Source of the DNA: Pyropia yezoensis
Taxonomy: Eukaryota; Rhodophyta; Bangiophyceae; Bangiales; Bangiaceae
Direction of reading: 5' to 3'
NCBI GenBank assembly: GCA_009829735.1
Contig: CM020619.1
Location: 5,782,083 to 5,846,082, forward strand
DNA length: 64,000 nt
Part shown: piece by piece, positions 1 to 32,551 of the stretch
Layout of the letters: every line of letters starts with the position of its first letter
Position numbering within the stretch: the first letter of the stretch is position 1
The notes under the pieces: model-generated
Database searches by the model: none
Seen by the model: the letters and a program-made list of their open reading frames with translations, nothing else
Told to the model about the DNA's origin: nothing
Position numbers and translations under genes: made by a program

Positions 1-1
1 C

Positions 2-10660: not shown

Positions 10661-10740
10661 CAACCCAACCGACACCGACTTCGGCTGTTGGGGGGTGAGG
10701 CTTATACCTACTAAGTAGGGCGTCACATAGAATCGGCAAG

Positions 10741-10782
10741 ACTTAGGTTCACTAAGTTGGAGCGGACTTAGGCAAACTAAGC
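10741..10782. repeat. Two palindromic ACTTAG..CTAAG repeats between pol and antisense gene (copy B)
   Basis: Identical to the pair in copy A: 17-bp units at 10741 and 10766, 25 bp apart, each with self-complementary ends. The rest of the 450-bp spacer (10661-11111) has no gene I can support. Confidence 0.75.
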
Positions 10783-11111
10783 AAGCTACTGACTTTTACA
10801 AGTTTACTTGAAGGAGATGACTAACTCCGAAAGTTTCAAACTAACCTGAGGCTTACACCAATGTAAACCTTCATGCATGCGACAAGTGACGGACCAAGGA
10901 AGGTTGACCTTCATGAGTATTAACCAACCAGGATGGGTTGGGGGAGGCGGGAAAGAACCGAGGCAAGCCACGACTAAGTCAGACGGGGTACTCCCCAATG
11001 GCAGGCATTGGTATCATGCAAACGCCCCAGCGGGGGATGAGTTTATACTCACTACTACCCGGCCACCATAAGGGTCACCGGGGCCCTCTCCCTCACAAAC
11101 AATAGCACTCC

Positions 11112-13484
11112 TCAGTGGGTAGACCCACTGCCCGAGGGAGGCCACTCACGCGTAAGCGCGTATACCTCCATGCTCCACCGGTCGGCAATCTCACGACGGT
11201 CAATCACCCGAGTTATCTCGGTGCATAGCTGGACGAGGGTGCTGCGGCCAGCCTCCACGTCCTCCAGAGCTGTCTGGAGGCGGTCAAGCACGCCACCGAA
11301 GCAACGCGCTGACCCAACCAGCGCAGCACCTGGGGGGATATCCCCCCAGCTAACAGAGAGACCCTCCCGCATTGCGCGGGTAACTAGGGCGTCAACGCCC
11401 TCATACCAGAGACGGGGACCCCCGTCATTCATGACAGGGGCGGGAGGTGACACTGGCGCAGCCAGAGGAGCCACAGGAGCCGACACGGCTACTACCGGAG
11501 CCGGTGGCACCTGATACGAGGCCCGGTAGGACCCTACTGAAGGGGCCCCACCGTACACCCGGCGGGGCTCGGCCCGACGACGGGACACCTCACGCTCCCC
11601 ACCCGCAGAGCCCCACTCTCGGGGACGACGGCCAACCGCCGCCAGTATCGGGTTACCGAACCACGGGGCAAGGACCTGAAGAGGGTCATGGATAAACATG
11701 GGAATACCCAGGTCAGCAACAGCCTCGGTGGACGCCCACCCATGGCAATTGGGCTCACCCGGCTGAGTACGCCGGATACGCAACGAGTGACGAGGCAAGG
11801 GGGAAGCCCCAGCCCGCGGGTCCCGGTACGGGGGAAGGGCCAACACCCCAGCCCAGTTCACGGCATCGTGAACAGCCAGCAGGGCCTCGAACTCCCGGGC
11901 CAACCCGGTCTTGGCGGCTATCATGTCCACGCCCAACTGCGCGATGTGCCGACGGACACCCGTCGGAAGATGAAGCAGGCGCCCCTGCCGGCGGACGGGC
12001 AGCAAGAAGGAGGAAGCCTGCCCGAGGGTAACCTCAAGGGTGAAGGTACCTTGCAACGGGTGGACCGGCCGGGAGGCCAACACACTCCCGAAGTATCGGA
12101 GGCAGGAGCCGGTGTCAAACCGGAAAGCAGGAGCGGGTTCCCACCCCTCCTGCCACAGAGGCGGGCGCACGGCAGTGTACACCGGCGCGCGACCGTTACC
12201 GGTCTGCAACGCACACGTTATATCGGTGCGGAACGCATCCGCCATGAAGCCATGGCTGCGTCGCCAGCTCGACGCTGACTTCAAACCCGCCATAGGCGGG
12301 TACGGAGCCTTCAACGTCAGGTACGGGGATACCCCCGGGAAGTACTCGAACCCGGGATACCGGCCGGTATCACCCACCGTCTCCCCAAACGCAACCGGCT
12401 CCGCCGCCGCCGCAATCCCCCGAGCACTAGCCGGGTAGTCAACCTCCCGCGGCAACGCGGGGGCAATCAAGTTGCATATCCCGAAGGCGGAGTCGAGGTA
12501 GAACTCACCCCGCCCAATCCGGGTGCGCCAGAGCTGCGCATGCCGGTCGTCCGGCTGACTCAGGATCCAATGATGCTCCACTCGGACCGCGTTCGGCTGG
12601 TTGACCAGCCGCACCAACTCCCGCTCCCAACTCGGGTCCACCTTGACGCGCCGGGAGGTCTCTCCAGGGAGACGCGGCTGGTGGAAGTCCCCCCGCATCC
12701 GCCCGGCGGACTCCATCGACTCTTGCACAGTCATGCCTCAAACCCGAGCCACCAAATTGGACATCGACATGGCGGGTTGACCCGCCGCCACGGCGACGCC
12801 GCCACCCAACGGGGCAACTCGGGCAGGACCAGGAAGAATCGGGGGCGCCGGGGGATGCCCCGCCGGCAGATGGGCCGGTGCCGGAGGTGCACGGGGCCGA
12901 GGAGGAAGAAGAAGGGCGGGCGCCCGCCCGGAGTAGCTCCCGGAGTCCACTGCCATCGGGGTAGACATTTCTTAACCTTCAAGCGTCCGCGGCACCGCGG
13001 GCAGAGCATCGCCGCCACCCGGGCCCGACGTGGGCACCACGGGGGCGGCAGGGGTAGACCCGTTACCCGCCGACGCGGACACACCCACCGGGCGGGCAAC
13101 CGCGCCGTCTTGACCCGCCGGCTCGGCTGGGGTGCGGCCACGACCATCCGCCACGCCGGCGACGCAGTCTTGAGGTAGAGTCGCGCCGGCACCGGCGACA
13201 GAAGCCATCCTGGCCGCCGGAGGAGTAGCGGTAGAGGCCACCGCTGCACGCGGTGGTCCGCCACCCGACGGAGCCGTCGTGCCGCTGCACACGGACGACA
13301 ATCCGCCCGGTGCTCCTTCCGGGGCCACACGAACGGTCACCTGGTCGTCCTCGTCCTCGGACGAGCTCGCCAAGAAGCACTCGGCAGCGGTGGCGGAGAC
13401 GGGAACGTCGTCCTGCATCACCTCCTCCTCCTCCTCCTCAAGCAGGGGGTCGTCCTCGCCCCCGGGTACCAGGGGGTCCGACAT
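11112..13484 (-). pseudogene. Family 1 antisense accessory ORF (aORF1), copy B, two in-frame stops
   Basis: Starts at MSDPLVPGGEDD (ATG complement 13482-13484) and reads downward in a single frame to 11112. The N-terminal third is acidic and disordered (EEEEEEV, SSSEDEDDQV) followed by Ala/Gly/Pro-rich sequence. The C-terminal part is compact (HHWILSQPDD, WQEGWEPAPAF, FGSV, RLLHLP, LLAVHDAVNW). TAA at 12972-12974 and TGA at 12738-12740 interrupt the frame; copy C has sense codons at both places. Frame otherwise kept, so decay is recent. Function unknown. Confidence 0.8.
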
Positions 13485-13520
13485 GGTGAAACCGGGGTAG
13501 CAGGGGCGTCCCGTGCCAGA

Positions 13521-13989
13521 TGTGGCAGTATTGACCCCCAGGTAGGGGGACAACACGTGCCATGCAAGGGGCGGCAGGCCACTAGCCTGATCCGTTCCTC
13601 CCCCTGCATTTGGGTCCATATTCCCTAAGTTTGGGATAGTTAGCTTAGTAGTAAATCCAACTTGGATTTGAGGGTTTTCTGCATTTATCGTCTTGAATTT
13701 TCGTGTGGCCTGGTGGGCAGGTGCTGGGGTGGGAGATTCTGAGTGGCGAGATTCTGAGTGGACCCTGGGGGGATAAGGGGAGGGACAGCGGGGCTTGGCC
13801 CTGCGTCCCCGTCCCGACCAAGAAACTGTTGGACCACACACCATCCTCTTGTTTGTCCGTGGGGGGTTTGCCCCACAACAGGGACAGAGTGTGTGCGACT
13901 TGCACTTCTTCCGGTTCCCCCGACACGGGAGGCAGCCCTAGCACACCGCCACAACTTGGGTGCCGTGTGTGCTTGTGGTTTTTGCCACA
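13521..13989 (+). repeat. 5' LTR of family 2 element 2A
   Basis: 469 bp, matching 22429-22897 with two substitutions and 56359-56828 with a few. It starts TGTGGCA and ends TGCCACA, a perfect 7-bp terminal inverted repeat with the usual TG...CA ends. Directly followed by the primer-binding site. Confidence 0.95.
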
Positions 13990-13991
13990 TT

Positions 13992-14009
13992 TGGTGGAGC
14001 AGCAGGGGA
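13992..14009 (+). promoter_or_regulatory. Primer-binding site of element 2A
   Basis: TGGTGGAGCAGCAGGGGA starts 2 nt after the LTR CA end. Its reverse complement ends in CCACCA, as expected for a tRNA 3' end. The tRNA species cannot be named without a tRNA set. The same sequence follows the LTR of 2B at 56831. Confidence 0.8.
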
Positions 14010-14011
14010 CA

Positions 14012-14067
14012 GAGGTAAACTTTACCTCCGGGTGCACCCGGGTGTAGGGGGCCCTCTGTCTCAGAGG
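14012..14067 (+). promoter_or_regulatory. Leader palindromes between primer-binding site and gag (2A)
   Basis: Three self-complementary segments in a row: GAGGTAAACTTTACCTC at 14012-14028, the 14-bp palindrome CCGGGTGCACCCGG at 14028-14041, and CCTCTG-TCT-CAGAGG at 14053-14067. Position between PBS and gag is where retroelements keep dimerisation and packaging signals. The GTGCAC core palindrome is unchanged in 2B (56867-56880). Confidence 0.5.
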
Positions 14068-14108
14068 AACGGTGGACTTGGACCGTGTCATACGGATCGT
14101 CAGCCAAC

Positions 14109-16055
14109 ATGGCTAGCTCGGACCCCCCGTCGTCCGGGGAGTACACGGGTGACGCACGTACTTCAGTGCCTTTGAATACTGGTGAGACACAGGTGGGTTT
14201 ACCTGGGGTCGCAGAGGGACTAGAGGTCCCTCAAGCCAGCAGGACTGGAAGTGCGGGCGGGCAACAGGCCATCCCAACTCAGTCGGGAGTTCACTCGGGT
14301 GACACTTCTGATGTGGGTGGGCCGAAGTCTGGCCACCGTGTGGTATACTCAACGGGAACGTCCCAAGAGGTGAGGACTGTCCCCGCGGGTTCCACTCTGG
14401 TTGGAGCCAACCTTGGCTTGGAGCCGTCGCCAACTAGGCTTTCGGAGGACGGCGGACCTCCGTTGGTCGGCGATGGGCTCGCGCCCATGCCCCCGGTTGA
14501 GACCCCTGAGGAACGTGGTTACCCCTCAGGTGGACTCCCGGAGGCGGACCGAGACTCAACTGGAGTCGTCAATCCACTCCTCGCGGAAACTGTCCGTCGG
14601 GAGGCGACCAATGCGTTGCGGCAGACTTTGCCGGACCTGGTGGTCACGATGACGAATACTATTCTGAATCAGATTGTGGCGAGTTTGCCAGATGGCCTTA
14701 ATGTCCAAACCGGATTGGGGCTTTCGAGCCCGCAGGCGCAGGGGGAATCCCCCCTTACGCCTATCTCTGGTCGCCCCGAACTGGGGGCGACACCTGTGAC
14801 TCCCAACGAGGGAGCCACACCATACTCGGTGGGGCGTACGCCCTTCACGGGGGAGTTCCCCCCGGAAACGCCGGCGGCTACACCAAGCGCGCCGCGCCGG
14901 ACTACAGGCACTGAGGGTGAACTTACCCCAGTGCCACAACAGCTGTTCCCTCAACGTGAGGTGCCGCCCAAGATCCAGGTAGCCAACCCGGTCTACCAGA
15001 GGATCTTTGACTGTGAGACCTACGCCCTCCACAACAAGTCGGTGGCGTATGGTCCTGACCAGGCCCGAGCCATGGGCCGTGCCAAGAAGAATGCACTTCA
15101 TTCTTTTGGGCACAAAGCGGAGTGGGACGGAACTCCCCCCCTCCGTGTCTTTGAGTTCCTACGTCGTTTCACAAAAGCCTGTGACGACAATGCCATAAGT
15201 GAAGGCATGGCTTTTTACATGCTACAGGAGTTTACGAAGGGCGACCTACGGACAGAACTTATGTCCGTCATGCCCAGCTCCTCAAGTGGAGTCGCTGGGG
15301 AGGTGACGTCCTATTTGGAGCTCGTCAACTGGTTGTTGAGAGCCATGGTTGATGAGGCAGCGTTGGCTTCTCAAGTCGAGGAGTTTACGCAAGCCCATCA
15401 GGAAAAGGCGGAGGACGAGTTGTCCTTTGCGGAGCGAGTCCGTAAGCTCAACAATCTTTGTGGGTTTCTTCATCCACAAGCTGTGGTGAAGAGTCGGTTT
15501 GTGGAGGGACTCCCTTGGTCAGTCCGGATGGAGACCCGGGAGCATAACACTGCCCGGGCGACCCTGGCCGAGTTGGCCAGGTTCGCCTATCGCAGAGGTG
15601 AGGCCTACCGCAAGTTGCGGGAGGAACAACGCCAGGAGCGTCAGGCCGAGTTGGCCAAGGAACGTGCGGAGGCGCGCCAGGCCAGAGAGTTGAGAGAGGC
15701 ACGCCGAATCCGCAAGGAGAGGGTGGTAGCTGCCGTGGGAACTTCCCAGGGTATCCCTTCGTCTTCCCCAGTTGGGAAGATTCCTCCTGGAACGGACCAT
15801 CGGTGTTGGAACTGCAACTCCGATGGTCACTGGGCATATGATTGCCCCAAGTTGAGTAAACGCATCCAACAACTTGTTAGGAATGCGAGTAAGAAGTCGG
15901 CTACGAACGAAGTACGTTCACGCCGCGAGGGTGGGTCTCGACCGGTCGTCGCGGTCGCCACACCCTCGGCGGAGGAGGCGGACACGTCGTCCTCGGACTC
16001 GTCGTCTTCCTCCCCGCCCTCAGATTCGGACGCCAAGTCGGCGGGAAACGAATGA
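14109..16055 (+). CDS. gag: Family 2 Gag (capsid/nucleocapsid) of element 2A
   Basis: 648 aa; packages element RNA into particles. The start is the ATG at 14109 in a strong context (CAACATGG); the frame is open a little further upstream but without an ATG. The N-terminal half is Pro/Thr/Gly-rich. A helical capsid-like region follows at about residues 300-480 (FEFLRRFTKAC, YMLQEFTKGDL), then a charged coiled-coil-like stretch (about 500-540), a CCHC zinc knuckle CWNCNSDGHWAYDC (about 565-578) and an acidic/Ser-rich tail. The TGA stop overlaps the ATG of pol as ATGA, so pol lies in the -1 frame. Confidence 0.93.
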   Translation: MASSDPPSSGEYTGDARTSVPLNTGETQVGLPGVAEGLEVPQASRTGSAGGQQAIPTQSGVHSGDTSDVGGPKSGHRVVYSTGTSQEVRTVPAGSTLVGANLGLEPSPTRLSEDGGPPLVGDGLAPMPPVETPEERGYPSGGLPEADRDSTGVVNPLLAETVRREATNALRQTLPDLVVTMTNTILNQIVASLPDGLNVQTGLGLSSPQAQGESPLTPISGRPELGATPVTPNEGATPYSVGRTPFTGEFPPETPAATPSAPRRTTGTEGELTPVPQQLFPQREVPPKIQVANPVYQRIFDCETYALHNKSVAYGPDQARAMGRAKKNALHSFGHKAEWDGTPPLRVFEFLRRFTKACDDNAISEGMAFYMLQEFTKGDLRTELMSVMPSSSSGVAGEVTSYLELVNWLLRAMVDEAALASQVEEFTQAHQEKAEDELSFAERVRKLNNLCGFLHPQAVVKSRFVEGLPWSVRMETREHNTARATLAELARFAYRRGEAYRKLREEQRQERQAELAKERAEARQARELREARRIRKERVVAAVGTSQGIPSSSPVGKIPPGTDHRCWNCNSDGHWAYDCPKLSKRIQQLVRNASKKSATNEVRSRREGGSRPVVAVATPSAEEADTSSSDSSSSSPPSDSDAKSAGNE

Positions 16056-19000
16056 CCGTTGGGGCTGGTCGTCCGAAGCTCACAACGGCAGCCTCGGCCA
16101 AGTGGGCCAGGAGGACGAACCAACCGTGCCGGATACTGCGGCGACCTAAGGGAGTCCGCCCACCTCGGGTAGGACTCCCCAAGAACGTAAACCCACGTCG
16201 GGTCATCGCGGTGCTGACGGGTGAGAACTTCCAGGTGGCTAAACGGGTGCAACTTGCCCCCGGCCGCGCCTGTTGTGCCCGTATCGTACTTGATACCGGG
16301 TCAGGAGCCTCCTTGATACGCAAGTCGCTATTACCAAAGGAGGTGAAGCTCCAACGCTGGAGGTCCAAAGCTGACCATATGATTGACATCAATGGTGGGG
16401 TACTTCCCATCGTTGGTGCCGTGACCCTACCAACTAGGTTGGGGACCCATGAGGTCGACGTGACCTATGATGTAGTTGAGAATATATCGGTACCCCTGTT
16501 TCTGGGTACCCCTTATGTTGTTACACAAGTGCCTTTGATTTGTGGCCCTGAGTACTGGGTCAAGTTGATGAATGGGGAGACTATCCCCATCCTTGGTAAG
16601 GGAAAGTCTGTGGCTCCTGTGACAGTCTCACAGTCGAAGCCTGTTTGCTCTGTGAGGGAAGGGTTTACTGCTACCCTGCGTTTAGCCCCTGAAGTCACGT
16701 TGCCCCCCAACTCGGTGGCGCACGTTGACGTTGTAACTGATTTTTCGGGGAACGGGTTGGTGCACCCTTACCCCCGTCTTGCTCGCAAGCACCAAGTGCA
16801 TGTTGCCCTTGGCACGATGGACTCCAAAGCCGGAGTCCCGTGGAGGATACAGGTGATGAACCTGAGCTCGTCGCCCCAGTACTTCAAGTCGGGAGCCAAG
16901 TTCGGCTATATCGACCAACACGAGGGACCGGTAGTAGCGGTCACCCTCAATGCGGGCGCAAGTAGCGACCCGAAGTCCGGAAAGGAGAAGCATCAAGCCA
17001 AGTCGGCCGCCTCTCCTCGACCCCATGTGAACATGGAGGGTGTCCTCCCCAGGTTGAGGGTTCAAGTTGAACGCCTCTTGGACCAATATCACAAGTTGTG
17101 GGATGGTCAATTGGGACTCATGAGAGCTACCCAACACCGGATCGAGTTGAAGCCCGGTGCACCCCCTATACGCCAAAAACCGTATAGGGGAGGACCTCGT
17201 TCAAGGGCCCTCGTTAAGGAGCAAGTTGCTCGCATGGAGGCCCTCGATGTGATCGAGGCCAGCAACGCCGAGTGGGCGAGTCCGGTGGTTATCGTCCCCA
17301 AAGTTGATGGGACCCCCCGGTTTTGTATCGACTACCGTAAGCTCAACGAGAGCACGGTGAAGGACAGCTATCCCCTACCTAGGATGGATGACTGTCTGGA
17401 CTCTCTGGGGGAGGCAAACGTGTTCTCTACCCTGGACTGTAACGCGGGGTACTGGCAAATTCCCATTGCCCCGGAGGACAGGCATAAAACTACCTTTACC
17501 TGTCACTGTGGTACCTACCAGTGCAAGCGCCTACCGTTTGGTCTGTATAACGCGCCGGCAACTTTCCAGCGCGCTATGGACATGATTCTGGCCGGAGTAC
17601 GGTGGCAGATCTGTCTTGTGTACCTAGACGATATCATTGTGTTCTCCCGAAGTCCGGAGGAACACATTGGCCATCTTGGCCAGGTGTTCAAGCTACTTGC
17701 TGACGCCGGTGTGACGCCGAAGGCGAGTAAGTGCCACCTCTTCATTCAAGAGGTGGAGTACTTGGGACATGTTGTCCGTCCGGGGCGTCTCAGTGTTAAC
17801 GAGAAGAACTTGAGAGCCATTCGTAAGGCTCAGTACCCCCGGACCCAGACCCAGATGAGGAGCTTCCTCGGGATGTGTAACGTGTACCGACGTTTCACCA
17901 AGAGCTTCGCCAAGGTGGCGAAGCCGTTGAATGAGTTAGTGAGCTCAACGCTCCCGAAGAACCTACCTCCCCCAAGTCGGGTGGAGCAGGAATCCTTTGA
18001 GACTCTTCGGGACCTTCTGCTGAAGCCCCCCATCTTGGCTATTCCCAGGTTGGGAGGCCACTACATCCTGGATGTGGACGCTAGCTACGACCAACTTGGT
18101 TGTGTGTTGCTTCAGCAGCAGCCGGACAAGGAGTACTTGCCGGTGGGATACTTTTGTAAGGGGCTGAACTCGGCCGAGAAGAACTACGGAGTCACCGAGT
18201 TGGAAGGACTCGCAGTGGTGTGGGCGGTGACGTCACTTCGTCACTACCTGGAGGGTGAGAAGTTCCTCATCCGCTGTGACCACCGCGCGTTGCAGTTCAT
18301 CTTTAAGACGGACTGTACGAACACTCGTCTCAACCGGTGGAGGGTGCGACTGGCACCCTTCAACTTTGACATTGAATACCGACCTGGCAGGCAAAATGCC
18401 CTTGCCGACGGCCTCTCTCGGGTACCTACCGAGGGGCTGGACACTAACCCAGTCGATGAGGACATCCCCATCGGGGGGGTAGTCACGCGCTCGGGTCAGG
18501 CGTTGAACCCCGAGGCGCCAGGGAACAAGAAGTACTTGCCCCTGTCCCTGGACGAGGTGGTGAAGGCCCAGGCCGAGGATCCCTTCTGCAAGTCGCAGAA
18601 GGATATACTGGATACAGTGGTAGCGACGCGTTTCTTTCTGGGAGACGATGGCCTCCTCATGAGGAGGGGGGTATTCCAGGGGACCGAGCAACTTGTCGTC
18701 CCCGCATCCCTCAAGGACAGTATCCTTGAGAGGGAGCACAACGCTCCCACGGGTGGACACCTGGGGTCTAGTAAACTGTACCAGACCCTGAGGACCAGGT
18801 ACTACTGGCCGTCCATGGTGGTGGACATCTACAGTTGGGTGGCTGCCTGCACAAGTTGTGCACAGAACCGTCTGATGAAACGGCGGCCTAGTACGGCTAT
18901 GCTATTGTTCCCGGCCAAGGAGCCCTTCGCCGCGTTGGCGATGGACATCCTTGGGCCACTGCCAGTGACCGAGGAGGGCAACCAGTACCTCCTGGTCATC

Positions 19001-20035
19001 TGTGACCGCTTCACGAAACTTACGCGAGCGATCCCACTGGCAGAGATCACGGCCATGTCGGTCGTGTCAGCCTTCGTAGATCACTGGGTTGCCGCGTATG
19101 GCATCCCAGATAGTACACTATCGGACAATGGACCGCAATTTGCGTCTGTACTGTTTCAGGGAGTGCTGGATATGTTGGGGGTTAAGGCAAACTATGCCAC
19201 CCCCTACCACCCACAAACTAATGGGCGGGTGGAGCGCTTCAACAAAACTATTGTTAGGCAGCTGCGCCACTATGTGAGTGAGCACGTGAAGACGTGGGAC
19301 CAATACATTTCTATCCTTACTACTGCCTACAATTCGCAGGTTCACTCATCTACAGGGGAAGTACCCCTCGCTTTTGTGACCCCCCGTCGTGTGCGGTCTA
19401 CTGCCGTGCGGCGGTCGCTCCCAACTACGGAGGATGGTGGCAGTACGCCTACTCCTACTGAGAGTAAGGCGGAGTTCGCTGCTAGGCTTGAAAACCTCAT
19501 CCCTAAAGTCAGGGCTGAGATGGACAAAGCACAAAAGCGCTACAAGCGTACCTTTGACAAAAAGGTGCGCAATGCTAAGTACGTCCCCGAGCAGGGTGAC
19601 TGGGTGCTGGTACACTCGCACACCCCAACTGGGGGTAAGCTGGTATTCCAGACGAAGGGACCGTACCAGGTCCTTCGTACTGATGGGCGGCGCTTCACCA
19701 TCGAAAGTGACGATGGGGTCCGCACAGTGAACGGACAGGACGTGGTCAAAGTTGCACCACCGCCTGCAGGCGACCCAGCTTGGGCGCGTGCGTTGGAATC
19801 GTGGCGCCTCCCCTCACTGCCTGCGGCCAAGCAGGGCCCACAGGAGTACGTGTTCGATAAGTTCGTCGACCACGGATGGGATGAAGACACTGACCGCCTC
19901 ATGTTGAGGGTGCGTTGGTTTGGCTACAAAGCCAAGGATGATACGTGGGAGTATGTGGAGGACCTTCCCGCTGAGAAGGTCCGGGCGTACTGTGCCCGGA
20001 ATGCGATAGACCCTAACAGCCCTCCCTCAACGTGA
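16052..20035 (+). CDS. pol: Family 2 Pol polyprotein of element 2A (protease, RT, RNase H, integrase, chromodomain)
   Basis: 1327 aa, intact. Aspartic protease DTGSGAS (about residue 81); RT with FCIDYRKLN, LPRMDDCLDSL and YLDD (about 524); RNase H (ILDVDASYD, IRCDHRAL, LADGLSR); integrase HHCC finger (about 895-940) and DD35E core (AMDILG, LSDNG, NGRVERF) with exactly 35 residues between the second D and the E; chromodomain-like tail (LRVRWFGYKAKDDTWE). The start ATG overlaps the gag stop by four bases, so translation may rely on termination-reinitiation or -1 frameshifting. No key catalytic residue is missing. The NGQ of 2B is NGR here, next to but not at the catalytic E. Confidence 0.95.
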   Translation: MTVGAGRPKLTTAASAKWARRTNQPCRILRRPKGVRPPRVGLPKNVNPRRVIAVLTGENFQVAKRVQLAPGRACCARIVLDTGSGASLIRKSLLPKEVKLQRWRSKADHMIDINGGVLPIVGAVTLPTRLGTHEVDVTYDVVENISVPLFLGTPYVVTQVPLICGPEYWVKLMNGETIPILGKGKSVAPVTVSQSKPVCSVREGFTATLRLAPEVTLPPNSVAHVDVVTDFSGNGLVHPYPRLARKHQVHVALGTMDSKAGVPWRIQVMNLSSSPQYFKSGAKFGYIDQHEGPVVAVTLNAGASSDPKSGKEKHQAKSAASPRPHVNMEGVLPRLRVQVERLLDQYHKLWDGQLGLMRATQHRIELKPGAPPIRQKPYRGGPRSRALVKEQVARMEALDVIEASNAEWASPVVIVPKVDGTPRFCIDYRKLNESTVKDSYPLPRMDDCLDSLGEANVFSTLDCNAGYWQIPIAPEDRHKTTFTCHCGTYQCKRLPFGLYNAPATFQRAMDMILAGVRWQICLVYLDDIIVFSRSPEEHIGHLGQVFKLLADAGVTPKASKCHLFIQEVEYLGHVVRPGRLSVNEKNLRAIRKAQYPRTQTQMRSFLGMCNVYRRFTKSFAKVAKPLNELVSSTLPKNLPPPSRVEQESFETLRDLLLKPPILAIPRLGGHYILDVDASYDQLGCVLLQQQPDKEYLPVGYFCKGLNSAEKNYGVTELEGLAVVWAVTSLRHYLEGEKFLIRCDHRALQFIFKTDCTNTRLNRWRVRLAPFNFDIEYRPGRQNALADGLSRVPTEGLDTNPVDEDIPIGGVVTRSGQALNPEAPGNKKYLPLSLDEVVKAQAEDPFCKSQKDILDTVVATRFFLGDDGLLMRRGVFQGTEQLVVPASLKDSILEREHNAPTGGHLGSSKLYQTLRTRYYWPSMVVDIYSWVAACTSCAQNRLMKRRPSTAMLLFPAKEPFAALAMDILGPLPVTEEGNQYLLVICDRFTKLTRAIPLAEITAMSVVSAFVDHWVAAYGIPDSTLSDNGPQFASVLFQGVLDMLGVKANYATPYHPQTNGRVERFNKTIVRQLRHYVSEHVKTWDQYISILTTAYNSQVHSSTGEVPLAFVTPRRVRSTAVRRSLPTTEDGGSTPTPTESKAEFAARLENLIPKVRAEMDKAQKRYKRTFDKKVRNAKYVPEQGDWVLVHSHTPTGGKLVFQTKGPYQVLRTDGRRFTIESDDGVRTVNGQDVVKVAPPPAGDPAWARALESWRLPSLPAAKQGPQEYVFDKFVDHGWDEDTDRLMLRVRWFGYKAKDDTWEYVEDLPAEKVRAYCARNAIDPNSPPST

Positions 20036-20146
20036 GGGAAGGCCGAGCAACAGTGCCAAGAGAGTGCTTCAAGTCGAAGTGGTACGCAGAGTGGCTTTTA
20101 ACTACAGCCCTAACCCTCACACTCTCACAACAAAGGCAGCTGCCAA

Positions 20147-22090
20147 CTAGGCACGCATGCTAGACTCTCCCACTCCACGGCCCTCGCCCTCACGTGGAGG
20201 CGAGCGGCGAGACCCACGCCGATAACGTTCTCCACTCGTTGGAGGGGGCGGCGGCTCCAAGTCGGAACCGTCGCGCCCCTCACGGTCGCGCAAGTGGCGC
20301 CGACCGTGGCCACTCTTCTGCCTGGTCTTGCGCGCAAGTTTGCGACGCAGACGCTGGACAGACTCCGTCTCCGACGGGGTAGAGGACTCCGAAACGGAGT
20401 AAGACAACTCGTCTTCCGATACGGAGGGAGAGCGCCGCGAGTGTCGGCGACGACGGCGAGGAGGCGAGTATGCCCGGCTCGCGCGACGTTTGCCACGCCC
20501 AAGTGGGGCTGGCTGGGGCATAATAGCCCCAATGCGAGCCAACTCGGCTGTCATAAACTCCGCCACCGACTCGCAACTCGCGGTCGCCACTGCAGTACGA
20601 ATGCGCTCCTCAAGTTGAGGAGTCTCGGAACTCTGTAGGGTTGCGGTCGACGCGGCCAACCAGGAAATGGTGCGCACCAACGTGGTGATCATCATCTCTG
20701 AGGTTAGAGGCGTGGGCGGTAACACCAACTTGGGGTATACCGTCAGGAGGGTGGCCCCCAAGTTGGGGGACACCGGGGTGGAAGACTCCACGGCCACGCT
20801 GATCGGGATGTTCCCGTGAGGTTGGAAAGGAACAGGAGGAAGCCGAGGGGCCCGCCGAGGCGGCGGTACCCGGGTGTAACTGCGACCCCGACTTGGGGCC
20901 CCCGCAGTGGGTTGAGTCATATGGTCATCATAGGACGGCACGGCCATAACTATGGGCTTGTCCGGGGGTGGCGCAGTGTGGCGATCCACCCCCGGGGCAT
21001 ACGGGTAGTCCCCGATGCCCAACCCCTCTCGTAGGACCACACGGCCGTCGTGAAGTTCACGAGCGACCCACACGAACTGGCGAAGTGCGCCATCGTCCTT
21101 GGGCCCACGAGTGGGGCGGCGCAACTTGTGCTCAATGCTCTCCCACTCGATAAACTTATGGAGCCGGAGCATCTCATCAAGTAGAGTGAGTTGTCCTGAT
21201 GAGCACCCCTCAGCAACTAGCTGAGGGGTGAGCTGTTCCAAACCTTGGATGAGCCGAAGGGGGAGATGCCAGAGCATCCCCCGCCGCTGAACACAAGACA
21301 CCCAGGTCGACATGACCTCGAGGAGCCACTGGGTGGCCAACATGGCCCACACCAGGTGATCAGGGGCAGCCGTCAACATGACGGAGCCGAAGTGGTCAAG
21401 CAACCGTGGCAACAACGCCGGGAACCCGTAGGGGACCTCAACTTGAGGCCACCACTCGGGCTTCTTCGGATAGTACTGCTCCTGACTGGCAGCAGACTGT
21501 TGAGGAAACTCAAGTTGAGCCGAGGTCACCAAGTAGGGACCTCGCCGGAAGTCTTTCTCCATCCGCACATCAAAGTGATGAGTGTGCGGATCGGCCTCGT
21601 GGAGGTACGGGGGGCGAGTTGCCACCGCGTCCCAAGTAAAGGTCGGAAAGTCGCCGGGACCCGGGATAGTTCCCCCGCGGTCCACCATGGCCTTGGCCCG
21701 CTGAACGTCCTCAACCTCCTCATCGTCCAGGAAGGCAAACTGGTCCGTCCTGAAGCCGGCAGGGAACCCGACCCTACGGGGATACTTCTCCCGTAGGCGG
21801 TCCCATACCCGGCCCATCGCTGCGCCAAGTCGGCCACAGCGAAGAACAGTCAACCCCTCCTCATAAAGAGGCCAAGCGGGGTAAAACAACCGCCCCAAGG
21901 CCTCACGCGGGACAACTTGTCCCGCCTCCGGGGGAGACCCCGCCGTCAGCCCAAAGCCGGGTGACGCGGGAGTCCCATCCCCCGTAGCGATCGCGGAGCC
22001 CCCGCCTGAAGTCCCGGCGGGTGCTGCACCGTAGGAGGTGTCCTCCATGCGCTCGTCAAGAGAGTCCGTCTCCACTCCCGGAGTCGCCAT
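20147..22090 (-). CDS. Family 2 antisense accessory ORF (aORF2), intact
   Basis: 647 aa on the strand opposite to gag-pol, between pol and the 3' LTR. The chosen ATG (22088-22090) has a GCCATGG context; an upstream in-frame ATG at 22261 would add 57 Pro/Arg-rich residues. Layout: low-complexity N-terminus (1-60), a folded-looking region (60-430) with VWDRLREKYP, FTWDAVATRPPYL and a core at about 211-320 (WWPQVEVP, HFGSV, QRRGMLWHLP, LRLHKFIEW), then a basic Ser/Arg-rich tail (SPPRRRRRHSRRSPS, 540-647) resembling a nuclear or nucleic-acid-binding tail. The core is collinear with aORF1 of family 1. I do not recognise a known domain. Its 3' end lies 111 bp from the pol stop, and it could be driven by antisense transcription from the 3' LTR region. 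Confidence 0.8.
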   Translation of the reverse strand: MATPGVETDSLDERMEDTSYGAAPAGTSGGGSAIATGDGTPASPGFGLTAGSPPEAGQVVPREALGRLFYPAWPLYEEGLTVLRCGRLGAAMGRVWDRLREKYPRRVGFPAGFRTDQFAFLDDEEVEDVQRAKAMVDRGGTIPGPGDFPTFTWDAVATRPPYLHEADPHTHHFDVRMEKDFRRGPYLVTSAQLEFPQQSAASQEQYYPKKPEWWPQVEVPYGFPALLPRLLDHFGSVMLTAAPDHLVWAMLATQWLLEVMSTWVSCVQRRGMLWHLPLRLIQGLEQLTPQLVAEGCSSGQLTLLDEMLRLHKFIEWESIEHKLRRPTRGPKDDGALRQFVWVARELHDGRVVLREGLGIGDYPYAPGVDRHTAPPPDKPIVMAVPSYDDHMTQPTAGAPSRGRSYTRVPPPRRAPRLPPVPFQPHGNIPISVAVESSTPVSPNLGATLLTVYPKLVLPPTPLTSEMMITTLVRTISWLAASTATLQSSETPQLEERIRTAVATASCESVAEFMTAELARIGAIMPQPAPLGRGKRRASRAYSPPRRRRRHSRRSPSVSEDELSYSVSESSTPSETESVQRLRRKLARKTRQKSGHGRRHLRDREGRDGSDLEPPPPPTSGERYRRGSRRSPPREGEGRGVGESSMRA

Positions 22091-22411
22091 GGCTCTCCCC
22101 AAGTTGGGGAGAGACGCTCTGGCTATCGCGGCACGAGACCCGCCTCGAGTTGAGGGGGACTCGGATCGTGGGTATACGGGTGGCCTCCCCAGCGTGGGGC
22201 GGCCCAGTGGAAGGTGAAGGGGAGGTGGTGGTGATGGTGAAGTGTGAACTGAGGAGAGCAAGCTGCCGAGTGGGCAAGCTTGAGGAGAGGGGCGGTCAAC
22301 GTGACCGCCTCCACATCCGCGTTACGTACTCGAGGGGGGACAGCAAGTCGCGCCCCCAACGCCGAGACGTGCGTTTATGCACCCCCTCACAGGGCCGACC
22401 GGGTCGGTCGG

Positions 22412-22428
22412 AACTGAGGAGAGGGGAG
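22412..22428 (+). promoter_or_regulatory. Polypurine tract of element 2A
   Basis: Purine-rich AACTGAGGAGAGGGGAG abuts the first base of the 3' LTR, the normal position for plus-strand DNA priming. Confidence 0.75.
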
Positions 22429-22897
22429 TGTGGCAGTATTGACCCCCAGGTAGGGGGGCAACACGTGCCATGCAAGGGGCGGCAGGCCACTAGCCTGATC
22501 CGTTCCTCCCCCTGCATTTGGGTCCATATTCCCTAAGTTTGGGATAGTTAGCTTAGTAGTAAATCCAACTTGGATTTGAGGGTTTTCTGCATTTATCGTC
22601 TTGAATTTTCGTGTGGCCTGGTGGGCAGGTGCTGGGGTGGGAGATTCTGAGTGGCGAGATTCTGAGTGGACCCTGGGGGGATAAGGGGAGGGACAGCGGG
22701 GCTTGGCCCTGCGTCCCCGTCCCGACCAAGAAACTGTTGGACCACACACCATCCTCTTGTTTGTCCGTGGGGGGTTTGCCCCACAACAGGGACAGAGTGT
22801 GTGCGACTTGCACTTCTTCCGGTTCCCCCGACACGGGAGGCAGCCCTAGCACACCGCCCCAACTTGGGTGCCGTGTGTGCTTGTGGTTTTTGCCACA
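22429..22897 (+). repeat. 3' LTR of family 2 element 2A
   Basis: 469 bp, TGTGGCA...TGCCACA, two substitutions from the 5' LTR. It is joined directly to family 1 pol sequence (CCGATGACGGG), which gives copy C a fused left end. Confidence 0.95.
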
Positions 22898-25800
22898 CCG
22901 ATGACGGGAAGCCTAGTCGACCATCATTACCGGCGGATATTCCGCCGAAGGACCAAGAAGCATTGAAGGCACTGGCCGAGGCTGACCTCGACCACCTTCC
23001 CCCTTCGGTAGCCGAAGGGTTACGACGACTGTTAAGAAAGCATGACGTCATGTGGACAGGCGGAGCCTTGGGTACCATTGGGGCAACCCAACATCGTATT
23101 GACCTGGTACCAGGCGCACGCCCCGCCCGGTCACAACCGCACCGAGCGGGACCTATGCAACGAGAGATCGTTGATTGAGAAGTGAAGAGGATGAGTGAAG
23201 CTAAGGTGATCCGACCTTCGACGTCGGAGTGGGGTGCCCCAGTCGTTATCGTACCGAAGAAGGATCAAACCCCTCGGTTTTGCATCGATTATCGACGCCT
23301 CAACTTGGTTACCAAGAAGGACTCATACCCTTTACCAAGGATGGATGAATGCATCGACTCCCTGGGGGAAGCTACGGTGTTTACCACCATCGACTGCAAT
23401 GCCGGATACTGGCAGATCCCGGTGGCGGACGAGGATATCCCCAAGACGGCATTCGTCTGTCACAGAGGAGTGTACGAGTTCCTAAGGATGCCCTTCGGAT
23501 TGTCCAATGCCCCCGCTACATTCCAGCGGGCTATCGACATTATACTGTCGGGGGTGAAGTGGCGTAACTGCCTGGTGTACTTGGACGACGTCATCGTCTT
23601 CTCGCGTAACATGGATGACCATGTTCAACATGTTGACGAGGTACTCACCCTCTTGAGGAACGCCGGGGTAACCCTGCGTCTGAAGAAGTGCGCCTTCTTC
23701 CAACAGACGGTCGAGTATCTGGGCCACCAGATAGCCCCTGGTAAACTAGGGGTACTCGAAGCCAATACCCGGGAACTCCGGGATGCCCGGTTCCCTAACA
23801 CCCAGACGCAGCTCAAGAGCTTCCTGGGAATGTGCAATGTATACCGACCGTTCGTCAAGGACTTCGCTCGGATAGCTAAACCGTTAACGGTTCTTACGAG
23901 CAGTACCCTGCCCAAGGTACTCCAACCCCCTTCGCCTAGCGAAGAGGAGGCATTCGAGTCGCTGAAGCGAGCCCTACTATCCCCATCCGTCCTTGCGTTA
24001 CCGCACCGACGGGGTACCTTCGTCATCGATGTCGATGCGTGCGACACCCAAGTGGGATGCACCCTGCTACAGGGGGAGACGTTGATCGGTACCGATAACG
24101 TTATCCCGGACCTACGTCCGGTAGGATACTTCAGCCGGACACTCAACCCGGCTGAGCGTAACTATAGTGCCACCGAGCGTGAATGCCTCGGAGTTATATG
24201 GGCAGTGCAACTGCTCCGTCCATACCTGGAGGGCTCCAGGTTCATCGTGAGGTCCGACCACGAACCCCTACGATGGCTCCTCAACCTTGGTGACAAGGAT
24301 TCCGATAGCCATGGGAGGCTAGCCCGATGGAGGCTAAAACTGGCCGAGCACGACTACCGTACCGTGTATAAGGCTGGGTCAACCCACCATCTCGGAGACG
24401 CATTGTCTCGACTCGACACCCCGAGCGGGGATACCCGCCCGGTGGACAAGGACATCCCGGTGGTACCGGTCTGCATGGTAGGTAACGCTACCCAAGGTAT
24501 GGTTGACCATACCATGGCACACCGAGCATGCCCACTAACCCTCGCGGACTTCCGCGAGGCACACGCCAATGACGACGACTGTAGACGTCATCGCGCTAAC
24601 CTCCTGGCCGGTACGGCCGGCATCTTCTCCGAGAACGAAGACGGACTCATATACCGGCGGGCACCCGCCGATGGACGACATCAAGTCGTGGTTCCCGTGT
24701 CCTTACGGCAAGCCGTCATGGAACGAGAACACGAGAACCCCACAGCCGGACACTCGGGGGGTTCACGTATGTTCGCAGCAATGCGAAGGTTCTTCTACTG
24801 GCCAGCAATGGCCGTCGACGTGGTCGACCACGTAAGGGGATGCCACCCCTGTGCCCGTAACCGCATGAGTCTACATAGGCAGGCGTCTGCCATGAAACTA
24901 TTCCCACCCGATGGGCCCAACGAGCAAGTCGCTATCGACATACTCGGGCCACTTCCGGTAACGGAAGAAGGGAACAGGTACATCCTGGTCATGTCTGACC
25001 GCTTCACTAAGCTGTCACGAGCGGCAGCCATCCCGAATGATACGGCATACACCATCATGAACGCAGTGGTTGACCACTGGATCAGTGCATACGGAGTCAT
25101 GAAGCAACTCCTCTCCGACAACGGAGCAAAACTTACGTCAGCATTCTGCACTAAGGTCCTGGGCATGTTCGGCATCGAACCACGTCGGGCATCCGACTAC
25201 CACCCGCAAACCAACGGGCAGGTGGAGCGGTTCAACCGCACCATCGTCAAGATGCTACAGTGCTACGTGGCCGAGCACACGAACACTTGGGACAGGCTTC
25301 TGTCCGTACTCACCCTGGCATACAATGCCAGGCCATATCGGAGCACAAACATCGCTCCGCTGGAGTGGGTCATGCCACTAGGCGTCGGTAACCTGACGCT
25401 GCCACCAGGCAGGTGCACTCGGTATGATACACCGAAAGGCCGACCGGCCGAGCGTATCCACCTAGCTTGGTTGGCCAAGCTATCGTGGGTGATTCCTAAG
25501 CTTAAGGGTGCCCTTGACAGAACACAACTTCGATATAAGAAGAACTTCGACGCCCGGTTACGGGTGCGCAACGCAACCCTGATGACAGGTGACTGGGTCT
25601 ACATCAGACACCAGAAGTTCCGGGGCAATAAGCTCAGGCAACCGGTCAAGGGACCGTACCAGATTCTCCACAGAGATGACCACTCTGTTATCTTACACTC
25701 CGATACGGAGATCCAACGCATCAGTGTGAATGATGTCACACCTGCTCCGAAGCCGGAACAGCCTCAGCCGGTACCGGCTGGGTTGCTACATGAAGCTCTT

Positions 25801-26510: not shown

Positions 26511-28958
26511 TCAGTGGGTAGACCCACTGCCCGAGGGAGGCCACTCACGCGTAAGCGCGTATACCTCCGTGCTCCACCGGTCGGCAATGTCACGACGGTC
26601 GATCACCCGAGTTACATCGGTGCATAGCTGGGCGAGGGTGCTGCGGCCAGCCTCCACGTCCTCCAGAGCTTTCTGGAGGCGGTCAAGCACGCCACCGAAG
26701 CAACGCGCTGACCCAACCAGCGCAGCACCTGGGGGGATATCCCCCCAGCTAACAGAGAGACCCTCCCGCATTGCGCGGGTAACTAGGGCGTCAACGCCCT
26801 CATACCAGAGACGGGGACCCCCGTCATTCATGACAGGGGCGGGAGGTGACACTGGCGCAGCCAGAGGAGCCACAGGAGCCGACACGGCTACTACCGGAGC
26901 CGGTGGCACCTGATACGAGGCCCGGTAGAACCCTACCGAAGGGGCTCCACCGTAACCCCGGCGGGGCTCCGCCCGACGACGGGACACCTCACGCTCCCCA
27001 CCCGCAGAGCCCCACTCTCGGGGACGACGGACAACCGCCGCCGGTATCGGGTTACCGAACCACGGGGCAAGGACCTGAAGAGGGTCATGGATAACCATGG
27101 GAATACCCAGGTCAGCAACAGCCTCGGTGGACGCCCACCCATGGCAACTGGACTCACCCGGCTGAGTACGCCGGATACGCAACGAGTGACGAGGCAAGGG
27201 GGAAGCCCCAGCCTGCGGGTCCCGGTACGGGGGAAGGGCCAACACCCCAGCCCAGTCCACGGCATCGTGAACAGCCAGCAGGGCTTCGAACTCCCGGGCC
27301 AACCCGGTTCGGGCAGCGATCAGGTCCACGCCCAACTGCGCGATGTGCCGACGGACACCCGTCGGAAGATGGAACAGGCGCCCCTGCCGACGGACGGACA
27401 GCAGGAAGGAGGAAGCCTGCCCGAGGGTAACCGCAAGGGTAAAGATACCTTGCAACGGGTGGACCGGCCGGGAGGCCAACACACTCCCGAAGTATCGGAG
27501 ACAAGGGCCGGTGTCAAACCGGAAAGCAGGGGCGGGTTCCCACCCCTCCTGCCACAGAGGCGGGCGCACGGGAGTGTATACAGGCGCACGACCGTTGCCG
27601 GTCTGCAACGCACACGTTATATCGGTGCGGAACGCATCCGCCATGACACCATGGTTACGTCGCCAGCTCGACGCTGACTTCAAACCCGCCATAGGCGGGT
27701 AGGGAGCAGCCAACGACAGATACGGGGGTACCCCCGGGTAGTAGTCAAAGTCGGGATACCGACCGGTATCGCCCACCGTCTCCCCGAACGCAACCGGCGC
27801 CGCCGCCGCCGCAATCCCCCGAGCACTAGCCGGGTAGTCAACCTCCCGCGGCAACGCGGGAGCAATCAGGTCGCATACCCCGAAGTTGGGGTCAAGGTAG
27901 ACCTCACCCCGTCCCACCCGGGTGCGCCAGAGCTGCGCATGCCGGTCATCCGGCTGACTCAGTATCCAATGGTGTTCCACCCGGACCGCGTTCGGCTGGT
28001 TGACCAGCCGCACCAGCTCCCGCTCCCAACTCGGGTCCACCTTGACGCGCCGGGAGGACTCTCCACGGGGATGCGGCTGGTGGAAGTCCACCCGCATCCG
28101 CCCACCGGACTCCATTGACTCTTGCACAGTGAGGCCTCGAATCCGAGCCACCAGGTCGGACATCGACATGGCGGGTTGACACGCCGCCACGGCGACGCCG
28201 CCACCCAACGGGGCAACCCGGGCAGGACCAGGAAGAATCGGGGGCGCCGGGGGATGCCCCACCGGCAGAGGGGCCGACGCCGGAGGTGGACGAGGCCGAG
28301 GAGGAAGAAGAAGGGCGGGCGCCCGCCCGGAGTAGCTCCCGGTGTCAACCGCCATGGGGGAAGGAGCGTCTTGACCGCTCGACGCCCGCGGCACCGCGGG
28401 TAGGGTACCGGCGCCGGCACCACCCGTCGACGTAGCCCCCGCCTCGGAAGGGGAAGGCACTTGGACAGCCTCCGGAGCCGAAGCACCGGCCGTGCGGACA
28501 CCCGCACCGTCTTGACTCGCCGCACCGGGTGTCGCACCGCCACCACCACCCGCGTCAATGTCGGGACCGCCTTGAGGAGTCACCGCCCGGACACCCGGAC
28601 CACCTTGCCCAGCCGGACTCGGCCGGGAATCGCCACCTCCGCCGCAGGGCGGGCCATCTTGGGGTAGCTGCGGTGAGCCGGCACCGGCACCAGGCTCCAT
28701 CCGGGCAGCCGGCAGAGAGGGGGTAGAAGCCGCCACGCGCGGTTGACCGCCGGGTTGACCTCCGGCCGACGGCACCGTCGTGCCGCTGCACACGGACGAC
28801 AGTCCTCCGGCCGACAGACGGACGGACACAGCAGGCTCGTCGTCTTCAGACGAGCTCACCCCGTAACGCGCGGCGTCAGGACCGACAGGCGCGTCGTCCT
28901 CCATCTCCTCCCCGATCAGGAGGTCTTCCTCCTCTTCAAGCACCTGGGGATAGGACAT
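26511..28958 (-). CDS. Family 1 antisense accessory ORF (aORF1), intact copy C
   Basis: 815 aa from the ATG complement at 28956-28958 (MSYPQVLEEEED); the frame is open further upstream but that text is unlike copy B, where homology also starts at this Met. Layout: acidic N-terminus (1-60), Ala/Gly/Pro-rich linker (60-250), then a compact C-terminal half (HHWILSQPDDRHAQLW, a DYPASARGIAAAA block, core at about 465-575 with WQEGWEPAPAF, YFGSV, GRLFHLP and LLAVHDAVDW) and a helical end (LQKALEDVEAGRSTL). No known domain recognised. It is convergent with pol and homologous in its core to aORF2 of family 2. Unlike copies A and B it has no internal stop. Confidence 0.75.
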   Translation of the reverse strand: MSYPQVLEEEEDLLIGEEMEDDAPVGPDAARYGVSSSEDDEPAVSVRLSAGGLSSVCSGTTVPSAGGQPGGQPRVAASTPSLPAARMEPGAGAGSPQLPQDGPPCGGGGDSRPSPAGQGGPGVRAVTPQGGPDIDAGGGGGATPGAASQDGAGVRTAGASAPEAVQVPSPSEAGATSTGGAGAGTLPAVPRASSGQDAPSPMAVDTGSYSGRAPALLLPPRPRPPPASAPLPVGHPPAPPILPGPARVAPLGGGVAVAACQPAMSMSDLVARIRGLTVQESMESGGRMRVDFHQPHPRGESSRRVKVDPSWERELVRLVNQPNAVRVEHHWILSQPDDRHAQLWRTRVGRGEVYLDPNFGVCDLIAPALPREVDYPASARGIAAAAAPVAFGETVGDTGRYPDFDYYPGVPPYLSLAAPYPPMAGLKSASSWRRNHGVMADAFRTDITCALQTGNGRAPVYTPVRPPLWQEGWEPAPAFRFDTGPCLRYFGSVLASRPVHPLQGIFTLAVTLGQASSFLLSVRRQGRLFHLPTGVRRHIAQLGVDLIAARTGLAREFEALLAVHDAVDWAGVLALPPYRDPQAGASPLPRHSLRIRRTQPGESSCHGWASTEAVADLGIPMVIHDPLQVLAPWFGNPIPAAVVRRPREWGSAGGEREVSRRRAEPRRGYGGAPSVGFYRASYQVPPAPVVAVSAPVAPLAAPVSPPAPVMNDGGPRLWYEGVDALVTRAMREGLSVSWGDIPPGAALVGSARCFGGVLDRLQKALEDVEAGRSTLAQLCTDVTRVIDRRDIADRWSTEVYALTREWPPSGSGSTH

Positions 28959-29542
28959 GATAACGGGTACGGAGTCCCCCGCGCCCACAAGCCGTCGACG
29001 GCTACGACCCGGTACGAAGGGATAACCGGGACGAGCCAGGAAAGCGCGGACACCCGCGCTTATGACCACAAACGGCCACGAGAAGCGCCACAGGCACGCG
29101 GGTCGACCCACGCCCCACGGGGCTACGAACGCGCTCCACCCAGGCACCTGGGCGGGACGGGGCCACCCCCACTCACGGGGTAAGCAAGGGGGGTCACCCC
29201 CAACCGCCCCCACGCAACGCGGCCAGCCCCCGCCCCCCACTCAATCGTCCACACGAGAGGGGCCCCCCTACCGCCAGGCACCTGGTGGCGGATCCGCTTG
29301 CACCACCCCTCGGAAAGGGGGGTCGTGAACAGAAACCCGCATCGGGAATTTAACGGTCCGGAAAACGGATCGTGTGTGTGTACCGCACAAAGGGGGGCAC
29401 CCCCCTCAGACAACCTCGAAAAGTGGTGTCTGTCGCGACGGGGCGCAAAGCCCCACCCGACGGGTAAGCGGTCACGCGACCCACTTACATTCGGTAACCC
29501 GAATGCAACTCGACCCGGGGACGGGCCGAATCTAAGGGGGGG
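28959..29542. other. Non-coding stretch right of copy C; expected place of its 3' LTR
   Basis: No supportable gene. It is GC-rich, with a purine-rich patch (GGAAAGGGGGGTCGTGAAC) near 29315, and should hold the family 1 polypurine tract and LTR start. With no second family 1 LTR in the window the boundary cannot be fixed. Confidence 0.5.
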
Positions 29543-29756
29543 ATATGTATGGTACGTTGCAGAAAAAAGATACACGGAGCGTTCTTTTCTCTTTCCACCG
29601 AGAACCTTAGGGCCACAGACCTGAGCCAATCACGTGCCTTGACGGTATGCCCCGGTGTAATGCGCCCCACATGAGCGGTGGTGGGTCCGTTTCCGGAAAC
29701 CATGCCAGGACGCTCATCAACTGGAGAGCGAGTACGGCACGTAGGGAGGTCCACGA

Positions 29757-30615
29757 CACGGCGGGGGGGAGGGGGCGGTGCCGCCGCCGGCGTCGACGAC
29801 GGCAGCATCGTCGGCAGCATCGACGGCAGCATCGACGGCAGCATCGACGGCAGCATCGACGGCAGCATCGACGGCGGCGGCGACAGCGACAGCGGCGCGA
29901 CGGCGGCGGCAACGGCGGCGGCAACGGCAGCGGCAACGGCAGCGGAAACAGCAGCGGCGGCGGCAACGGCAGCGGCAACGGCAGCGGCAACGGCGGTAGC
30001 AACGGCGGCGGCGACGGCGGGGACCCCGGCGGCGTCAATGGCGGCGGCGAGGGCGGCGACACCGGCGGCGTCAACGGCAACGACGGCGGAAACGACAGCG
30101 ACGGCGACGTGGACGGCGATGGTGGCGACAACGTTGCGTTTGGGGGGGGGGAGGGCAGGGGGGGGGGGGGGGGGGCGCGCCGGTGACGGCGGCGGCGACG
30201 GCGCAAGTGGCGTCGGCTCCTGTGGCTGCGGGGGGGGGGGGGGGCGGCGCCGGTGACGGCGACGGCGACGGCGCAAGTGGCGTCGGCTCCTGTGGCTGCG
30301 GCCGGCGCGGCAGTCAAGAGTGTGGGAATGGACACCCCGCCTGTGCCGGTGCCCACGGTGGCGGCCACCTCGCCTGCCGCGGTGTCCGTGGTGACGGCTG
30401 CTACATCCGATGTGGCGGCAGTGGTGACCGCGGCGGTGGCGGTGGCGACGTCGGTCACGGCGGCGGCCGTCGACGCGGAGGCGGCGGTGGCTATCGACGA
30501 GGCGGCGGCCACGGCGGCCGCCGCGGCAGCCATCGAGGCGGTCGCAAAGACGGGCAGGCCACAGGCGGCTGTGGTAATGTGTTTGGGGGAGGGAGGAGGG
30601 GGGGACTGTGTTTGA
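29757..30615. other. Trinucleotide-rich low-complexity region, open in many frames
   Basis: GCN/GGN-type repeats leave long frames open on both strands (Ala-rich on +, Arg/His- or Pro-rich on -). Includes a 70-bp direct repeat (GCGCAAGTGG at 30201 and 30271) separated by G runs. Coding status cannot be decided. I see no conserved domain. Confidence 0.6.
29801..29872. repeat. 12-bp minisatellite, six units
   Basis: GGCAGCATCGAC repeated six times head to tail; the first unit reads GGCAGCATCGTC and the other five are exact. Confidence 0.9.
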
Positions 30616-32166: not shown

Positions 32167-32551
32167 TCCATGTATCTTTTTTGTGCAACGTACCATAGCA
32201 ATATGGTTGTCCGTATTGTGACCCTAATATGAGGGGGGCTACTTCTAACCCTTAACTTTCAATTTGATAGTTCGTACTGGTCACGGTATCTATAAGTTAC
32301 GTATGACCAGAGGGACTTGCATCTTGGGGTGGAGGGTAGTTAGTAGTGTCTCCGAGGGTTTATAACGTGGGGGCCGGCGGCGAATCCACCGCCGGCCAAG
32401 GTAGAACAACAAACCCCTCCCATTTGGGCTCCCATCTTGGTCCCGTGGCTTGCGCTCCAAGGACAACAACCTTGGCCTCCCGGTGACGTTGGTGCCGATC
32501 CCCCTTGGTGAGTGTTCCCTGAGAGTGGACGTGCGACGGATCCCTATTGTG

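Follow-up and report, generated by a model that had tools for sequence, protein, structure and literature searches.

Antisense genes of LTR retrotransposons are known mainly from flowering plants, and the sections of PMC7264820 and PMC11963269 drawn on here give them no established function. Open reading frames on the opposite strand between pol and the 3′ LTR, the arrangement that marks the aORF-3R class, are reported there for Grande, RIRE2, Retand, PvRetro13, and the fungal element Boty (PMC7264820, in part). The same sections already describe antisense ORFs common to several families in grasses, and state that the Grande product is nuclear and that its gene has its own antisense promoter. 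In Retand, antisense coding regions occur in all clusters, with TRP28 in 97%, and the TRP28 protein is proposed to be a DNA-binding regulator (PMC11963269, in part).

Antisense genes of this kind in red algae were not reported in the titles and opening abstract lines searched, which covered few subscription journals and included papers that mention Rhodophyta elements, such as PMC8282616. The window described here is a stretch of 64,000 nucleotides from Pyropia yezoensis (assembly GCA_009829735.1, contig CM020619.1, positions 5,782,083 to 5,846,082, forward strand) with a GC content of 64.4%. It holds elements of two families, of which family 1 carries the antisense gene aORF2 and family 2 carries aORF1. 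Their features are as follows.

13521 to 13989, plus strand: 5′ LTR of family 1, a 469-bp direct repeat with the ends TGTGGCA...TGCCACA
14085 to 16055, plus strand: gag of family 1, 656 amino acids from the listed GTG; open frame with a CCHC zinc knuckle (Pfam, E=2.3e-5)
16052 to 20035, plus strand: pol of family 1, PR-RT-RNaseH-INT with a chromodomain-like C-terminus
20147 to 22090, minus strand: aORF2, 647 amino acids and stop, ATG at 22090; open frame with variation dominated by third positions
20150 to 20488, minus strand: Arg/Ser-rich basic tail of aORF2, with clusters at residues 545, 582, and 624
21071 to 21745, minus strand: shared core of aORF2, about residues 116-340 (PPYL ... FGSV ... 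HLP ... H...[DE]W)
22429 to 22897, plus strand: 3′ LTR of family 1, 99.6% identical to the 5′ LTR
62987 to 63738, minus strand: 3′ part of aORF2 in another family 1 element, broken up among several frames, with N after 63738
2892 to 4523, minus strand: aORF1 of family 2 copy A
6485 to 10660, plus strand: pol of family 2 copy B, stop-to-stop frame; RVT_1 (9.4e-36), RT_RNaseH, Integrase_H2C2, and rve (Pfam)
11112 to 12734, minus strand: aORF1 of copy B; core and C-terminal part open, preceding part broken by stop codons
23179 to 26007, plus strand: pol of family 2 copy C, truncated at its 5′ end; DNA 90% identical to copy B
26511 to 28958, minus strand: aORF1 of copy C, 815 amino acids, antisense behind the copy C pol
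27159 to 27818, minus strand: shared core of aORF1 in copy C, about residues 381-600

The family 1 element spans 13521-22897 and is a Ty3/gypsy LTR retrotransposon: its LTRs flank gag and a pol in the order PR-RT-RNaseH-INT, with matches to RVT_1 (5.8e-34), RT_RNaseH, Integrase_H2C2, and rve, and a protease that at 12.6 bits lies under the Pfam cut-off. For the chromodomain at the integrase C-terminus, which marks the chromovirus branch, the Chromo match stays under the 25.1-bit cut-off in both families (19.1 bits for family 1, 12.8 bits for family 2). Pol and aORF2 are convergent, with about 110 bp from stop to stop, and roughly 340 bp separate the ATG of aORF2 from the 3′ LTR. The element edges (13510-13521 and 22897-22905) show no perfect 5-bp target duplication. 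The flanks correspond to different places of family 2, the N-terminal side of aORF1 as in copy B and the middle of pol as in copy C, and these observations suggest recombination or an assembly join.

Family 2 copies A and B (window 1-13386) are spaced 8220 bp apart, with a run of 500 N at 5169-5668 separating them, and match over 5168 bp at 99.96% identity. This near-identity may represent a very recent tandem duplication, a product of LTR recombination, or an assembly effect. The LTR side of copy C was judged by its matches to a genomic locus, L021 (G000:C2 9878561-9883987). The LTR region of copy C (29164-32557) is apparently split, with matches at 29164-29549 and 32196-32557 and about 2.6 kb between. 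The region G000:C2 9880061-9892954, part of which L021 covers, has four aORF1 copies at a spacing of 3489 bp. In L021, LTR-like sequence is followed directly by the next unit, which starts at the 3′ end of aORF1; the region looks, from this order, like an array of repeated aORF1 and LTR units without gag-pol. A further tandem repeat, with a 171-bp unit in three copies at 100, 99, and 79%, occupies window positions 34432-34944.

The original prediction of a long antisense gene between pol and the 3′ LTR is borne out in both families, which gives both the position and strand of the aORF-3R class. Both genes are also conserved over the copies of their family as other element genes are, the copies having been found through the aORF itself. 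The red algal genes thus look like a further case of a class described so far from plants and one fungus. They share place, strand, conservation over copies, homology between families, and the lack of an assigned function with the plant aORF-3R genes (Grande gene23, RIRE2, and PvRetro13, as given in the consulted part of PMC7264820). Unlike these, they have a red algal host and a chromodomain-like pol, a comparison in which the sequences themselves were set against each other through Pfam only. Boty of Botrytis likewise has an antisense ORF between pol and the 3′ LTR outside plants (PMC7264820, in part), although its host is fungal and the likeness is one of description. HBZ and APH-2 of HTLV-1 and HTLV-2 are antisense-encoded nuclear accessory proteins (PMC11963269, in part); they differ in gene layout, and serve as an analogy for the mode of working with no homology claimed.

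As had been predicted, the two antisense proteins have a core in common, collinear here over about 200 residues. The main BLASTP block between aORF2 and aORF1 has 48 of 189 residues identical (E=9e-10), while the other blocks listed have E > 4. Smith-Waterman alignment of the two cores scores 127, against a mean of 32.8, a standard deviation of 4.9, and a maximum of 51 for 500 shuffles; with the narrower cores first proposed, the score is 91 against a shuffle maximum of 50. FGSV lies at residue 234 of aORF2 and 490 of aORF1, and G-x-L-x-HLP follows after 33 and 32 residues, exactly as claimed. The motif L-x-x-H-x-x-x-[DE]W is present in both proteins, at a spacing of 30 residues in aORF2 and 28 in aORF1, where about 27-29 had been given. 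Its [DE] position is N in P0005 and P0006, two relatives from P. vietnamensis. Profile-profile comparison, proposed as a check, also recovers this block, although with a probability of 35% (E=4e-4) and on alignments that hold very little sequence diversity (Neff 1.1 and 1.4). The divergent aORF2-like sequences P0008 and L062 are marginal against aORF1, with scores of 53 and 58 for shuffle maxima of 57 and 61 (n=300). Judged by these alignments, the cores of aORF1 and aORF2 are homologous, and the two probably make up one family of element-encoded accessory proteins with an apparently undescribed domain.

The carriers were said to have clearly different pol proteins. This holds with a qualification: 533 of 1256 aligned residues are identical (42%) and the RT is 67% identical (106/159), which makes the families related. 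In local alignments, the end of RT with RNaseH has 106/194 identical residues, INT 113/222, PR with the N-terminus 108/349 (31%), the pol C-terminus 50/174 (29%), and the aORF 58/207 (28%); gag is 27% identical in a global alignment, so the divergence of the aORF is about that of gag. The family 2 gag in this comparison is L061:3473-4999, so assigned because copy B has a matching, frame-broken stretch (by eye). In the same locus, the pol of a different family ends at base 467, and family 1-like LTR sequence at L061:840-1300, about 370 bp behind that end, masks what lies beyond; it is another nested insertion.

Since the families are related, an antisense gene common to both needs no special explanation. 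Descent of aORF1 and aORF2 with one ancestral element appears simplest from these comparisons: the ancestor of both Ty3/gypsy families would already have had an opposite-strand gene between pol and the 3′ LTR, and both would have inherited it. Exchange of the gene between families by recombination (template switching), apart from pol, is rather unlikely. It would fit the block from aORF2 to the LTR in family 1, which mostly diverges less (0.003-0.05 per 75-bp bin) than the neighbouring pol C-terminus (0.014-0.094), but the copies for these bins were picked by aORF2 similarity, and that choice alone makes the aORF2 block more uniform. It would also fit the 16 private matches that aORF2 shares with aORF1 over 204 columns, compared with 5 for the aORF2-like P0008. 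Against it, the identities between families are alike for aORF (28%), gag (27%), PR with the N-terminus (31%), and the pol C-terminus (29%), as expected under joint descent. The family 1 LTRs (L031-L060, window equivalent 22473-22847) diverge by 0.003-0.018 per 75-bp bin, well under the aORF2 dS of about 0.08, and for this reason look homogenised or constrained.

Both genes are present in many copies. Only the best-scoring of 38299 (aORF1) and 3469 (aORF2) first-look candidates in the genome were scored. Among the matches listed, aORF1 has at least 56, including the window copy, with 48 of the 56 free of internal stops in the matched part; aORF2 has at least 92, all 92 free of such stops, and 83 of these lie in a 724-codon stop-to-stop frame (read by eye from the table). 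Divergent aORF2-like copies exist as well, among further matches listed, with 45-68% identity over part of P0002. Pattern matches in IMG/VR viral contigs numbered 21 and 41, none of which was confirmed. In P. vietnamensis, the relatives P0005, P0006, and P0007 are 48, 43, and 47% identical to aORF1, and 59-61% in the aligned core region. P0005 as a query gives at least 67 scored matches at 50-53% identity, and by this measure looks like a cousin of aORF1.

Eight protein relatives were found in all, none with an informative name, among the 8000 or so candidates scored in each search. Three of them are listed as P. vietnamensis hypothetical proteins, so ORFs of this kind may be mistaken for host genes. 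Derivation of the antisense gene from a captured host gene is very unlikely. Nothing speaks for it directly, even if an antisense position with a separate promoter would suit capture. Neither protein matches a PDB sequence (E<=1) or a Pfam family above the cut-off, and the uninformative names of the eight relatives also weigh against it, although a host relative could be missed among the candidates scored.

Changes at third codon positions dominate in both cores, which indicates purifying selection on the protein and agrees with the original prediction. A first pass with 30 copies each gave dN/dS values of 0.32 for aORF1 and 0.048 for the query part of aORF2; gag and pol of the two family 1 elements in the window give 0.50 and 0.34. 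All of these figures, and those that follow, come from related copies and not from independent events. The aORF2 set comprises 29 family 1 copies of the 92 listed, with the window copy omitted. Residues 1-460 served as the search query, which biases the copies towards similar proteins and lowers dN; in this part, 25, 11, and 104 of 460 columns vary at codon positions 1, 2, and 3. The core value of 0.042 is likewise a biased minimum, as the copies were chosen by protein similarity. Outside the query, residues 461-573 have a dN/dS of 0.115 and, among 113 columns per codon position, 10/11/27 variable ones (chi-square p=0.0034); counting only columns whose minor base is seen twice or more leaves 2/0/13 (p=5.5e-5). 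Codon periodicity is absent from residues 574-647 (p 0.95) and from the open sequence before the ATG (p 0.47, column counts). The last 73 residues (574-646), which hold two of the three basic clusters, are nearly neutral at 0.66.

The aORF1 set comprises 29 of the 56 listed family 2 copies, and the matched protein lies nearly all within the query. Here dN/dS is 0.158 in the core (residues 301-655), against 0.58 in residues 1-300, 0.52 in residues 656-815, and 1.35 in the sequence upstream of the ATG. As a yardstick, the pol C-terminus has 119/127/135 variable columns in family 1 (20/7/45 with the minor base at least twice) and 39/27/80 in family 2 (10/4/42); that of family 1 gives a dN/dS of 0.46 with 203 codon pairs containing a stop. 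The aORF cores are thus constrained at least as strongly as the adjoining pol C-termini. In a frame control for aORF2, four of the five other frames have dN/dS values of 1.6-7.3 and one sense frame has 0.14. Coding of the aORF2 region on the sense strand was rejected: its three frames (1.6, 0.14, and 7.3) contain 4134 to 9423 stop-holding codon pairs each, and the frame with 0.14 has the most stops (9423). Codon usage does not single out the coding frame: in aORF1 the +1 frame scores higher (0.111) than the true frame (0.089).

These patterns bear on a self-limiting or silencing module, in which antisense transcription or the protein restrains the copy number of the element and the RNA matters as much as the protein. 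The convergence of pol and aORF2 with about 110 bp between the stops would suit such a module, and regulation by dsRNA is proposed for plant antisense ORFs in the sections cited from PMC7264820. The codon-level constraint in both families points instead to a selected protein, as a role of the RNA alone would not produce codon periodicity, and silencing is accordingly judged quite improbable. The antisense genes are real, conserved, and protein-coding, and probably useful to the element. The homologous cores, the P. vietnamensis relatives, and the third-position-dominated changes in the cores uphold the predicted old, retained function at the level of the protein.

The proteins themselves have few recognisable features. 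In Pfam (E<=10), neither aORF1 nor aORF2 has a match except for a sub-threshold DUF6214 (E=0.045) in aORF1 copy B. Membership in TRP28 (PF04195) was rejected, with no match at E<=10 in the proteins or in the genome, the latter searched without a plant-genome positive control. A duplicate of Gag would be a control of the Ty1 p22 type; a relation to Gag was rejected at hhalign probabilities of 0.4% and 0.1% (alignments of 3 to 7 sequences). An Env-like protein was also rejected, the genes being antisense and the highest 19-residue Kyte-Doolittle means 1.23 and 1.54, where the customary threshold for a transmembrane segment is 1.6. Structure prediction of both proteins, which had been put forward as a check, gained nothing: mean pLDDT values are 37.6 and 34.1 and both models are unusable. 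They are loosely alike in a long helix, HLP, and several helices, and as no residue reaches a pLDDT of 70, nothing was drawn from this.

The N-terminal low-complexity part is long in aORF1 and short in aORF2. Both N-termini are acidic, with net charges of -5 and -11 over 30 residues. aORF1, P0004, and P0007 keep an N-terminal [DE]DLL with a Glu run, which we take to resemble acidic activation segments. Three basic clusters are found in aORF2 and none in aORF1 by the same pattern, so nuclear targeting is not common to both at the sequence level. The basic clusters of aORF2 and the acidic N-termini nevertheless favour, with modest confidence, a nuclear regulatory role over a role in the particle. 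The alternative is a cytoplasmic partner of Gag that joins virus-like particles or chaperones the element RNA, with the aORF2 tail binding RNA. The Arg/Ser-rich basic tail and the selection on the gene are consistent with such a partner. The alignments show no similarity to Gag (0.4% and 0.1%), though a partner need not resemble it, and antisense expression would be an odd route to a structural protein made in step with Gag; we consider this partner role unlikely.

An inherited, antisense-transcribed accessory gene whose protein is most likely nuclear is the reading we consider somewhat probable. Transcription of the gene would start from an antisense promoter in the stretch of about 340 bp before the ATG or in the 3′ LTR, and would be independent of the gag-pol RNA. 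The Arg/Ser-rich tail of aORF2 in family 1 would be suited to nuclear entry and nucleic-acid binding. In the nucleus, the protein would regulate transcription of the element, the handling of its RNA, or the integration complex, in line with proposals for the antisense ORFs of plants.

A very diverged relative of TRP28 would make this one ancient antisense gene common to plants and red algae. Position and strand are alike, and there is a loose likeness of spacing, an impression by eye, between L...P near FGSV and L34/P46 of TRP28 (PMC11963269, in part). The proteins and genome differ from Retand in having no PF04195 match (E<=10), and Retand belongs to a non-chromovirus lineage; such a common origin seems very improbable. 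A tentative proposal, possible though short of probable, is that a separate class of antisense-coded nuclear regulator, whose conserved domain is undescribed, evolved independently in the Ty3/gypsy elements of red algae.

The red algal family, with its many copies, a conserved core that can be measured, and relatives in another species, provides an independent case for testing whether antisense genes of retrotransposons share a mode of working, and adds a protein core unrecognised by the Pfam version searched. Should the genes of plants, fungi, and red algae prove unrelated, accessory genes in antisense would have arisen three times or more, as a common way of controlling a retrotransposon from its 3′ end.
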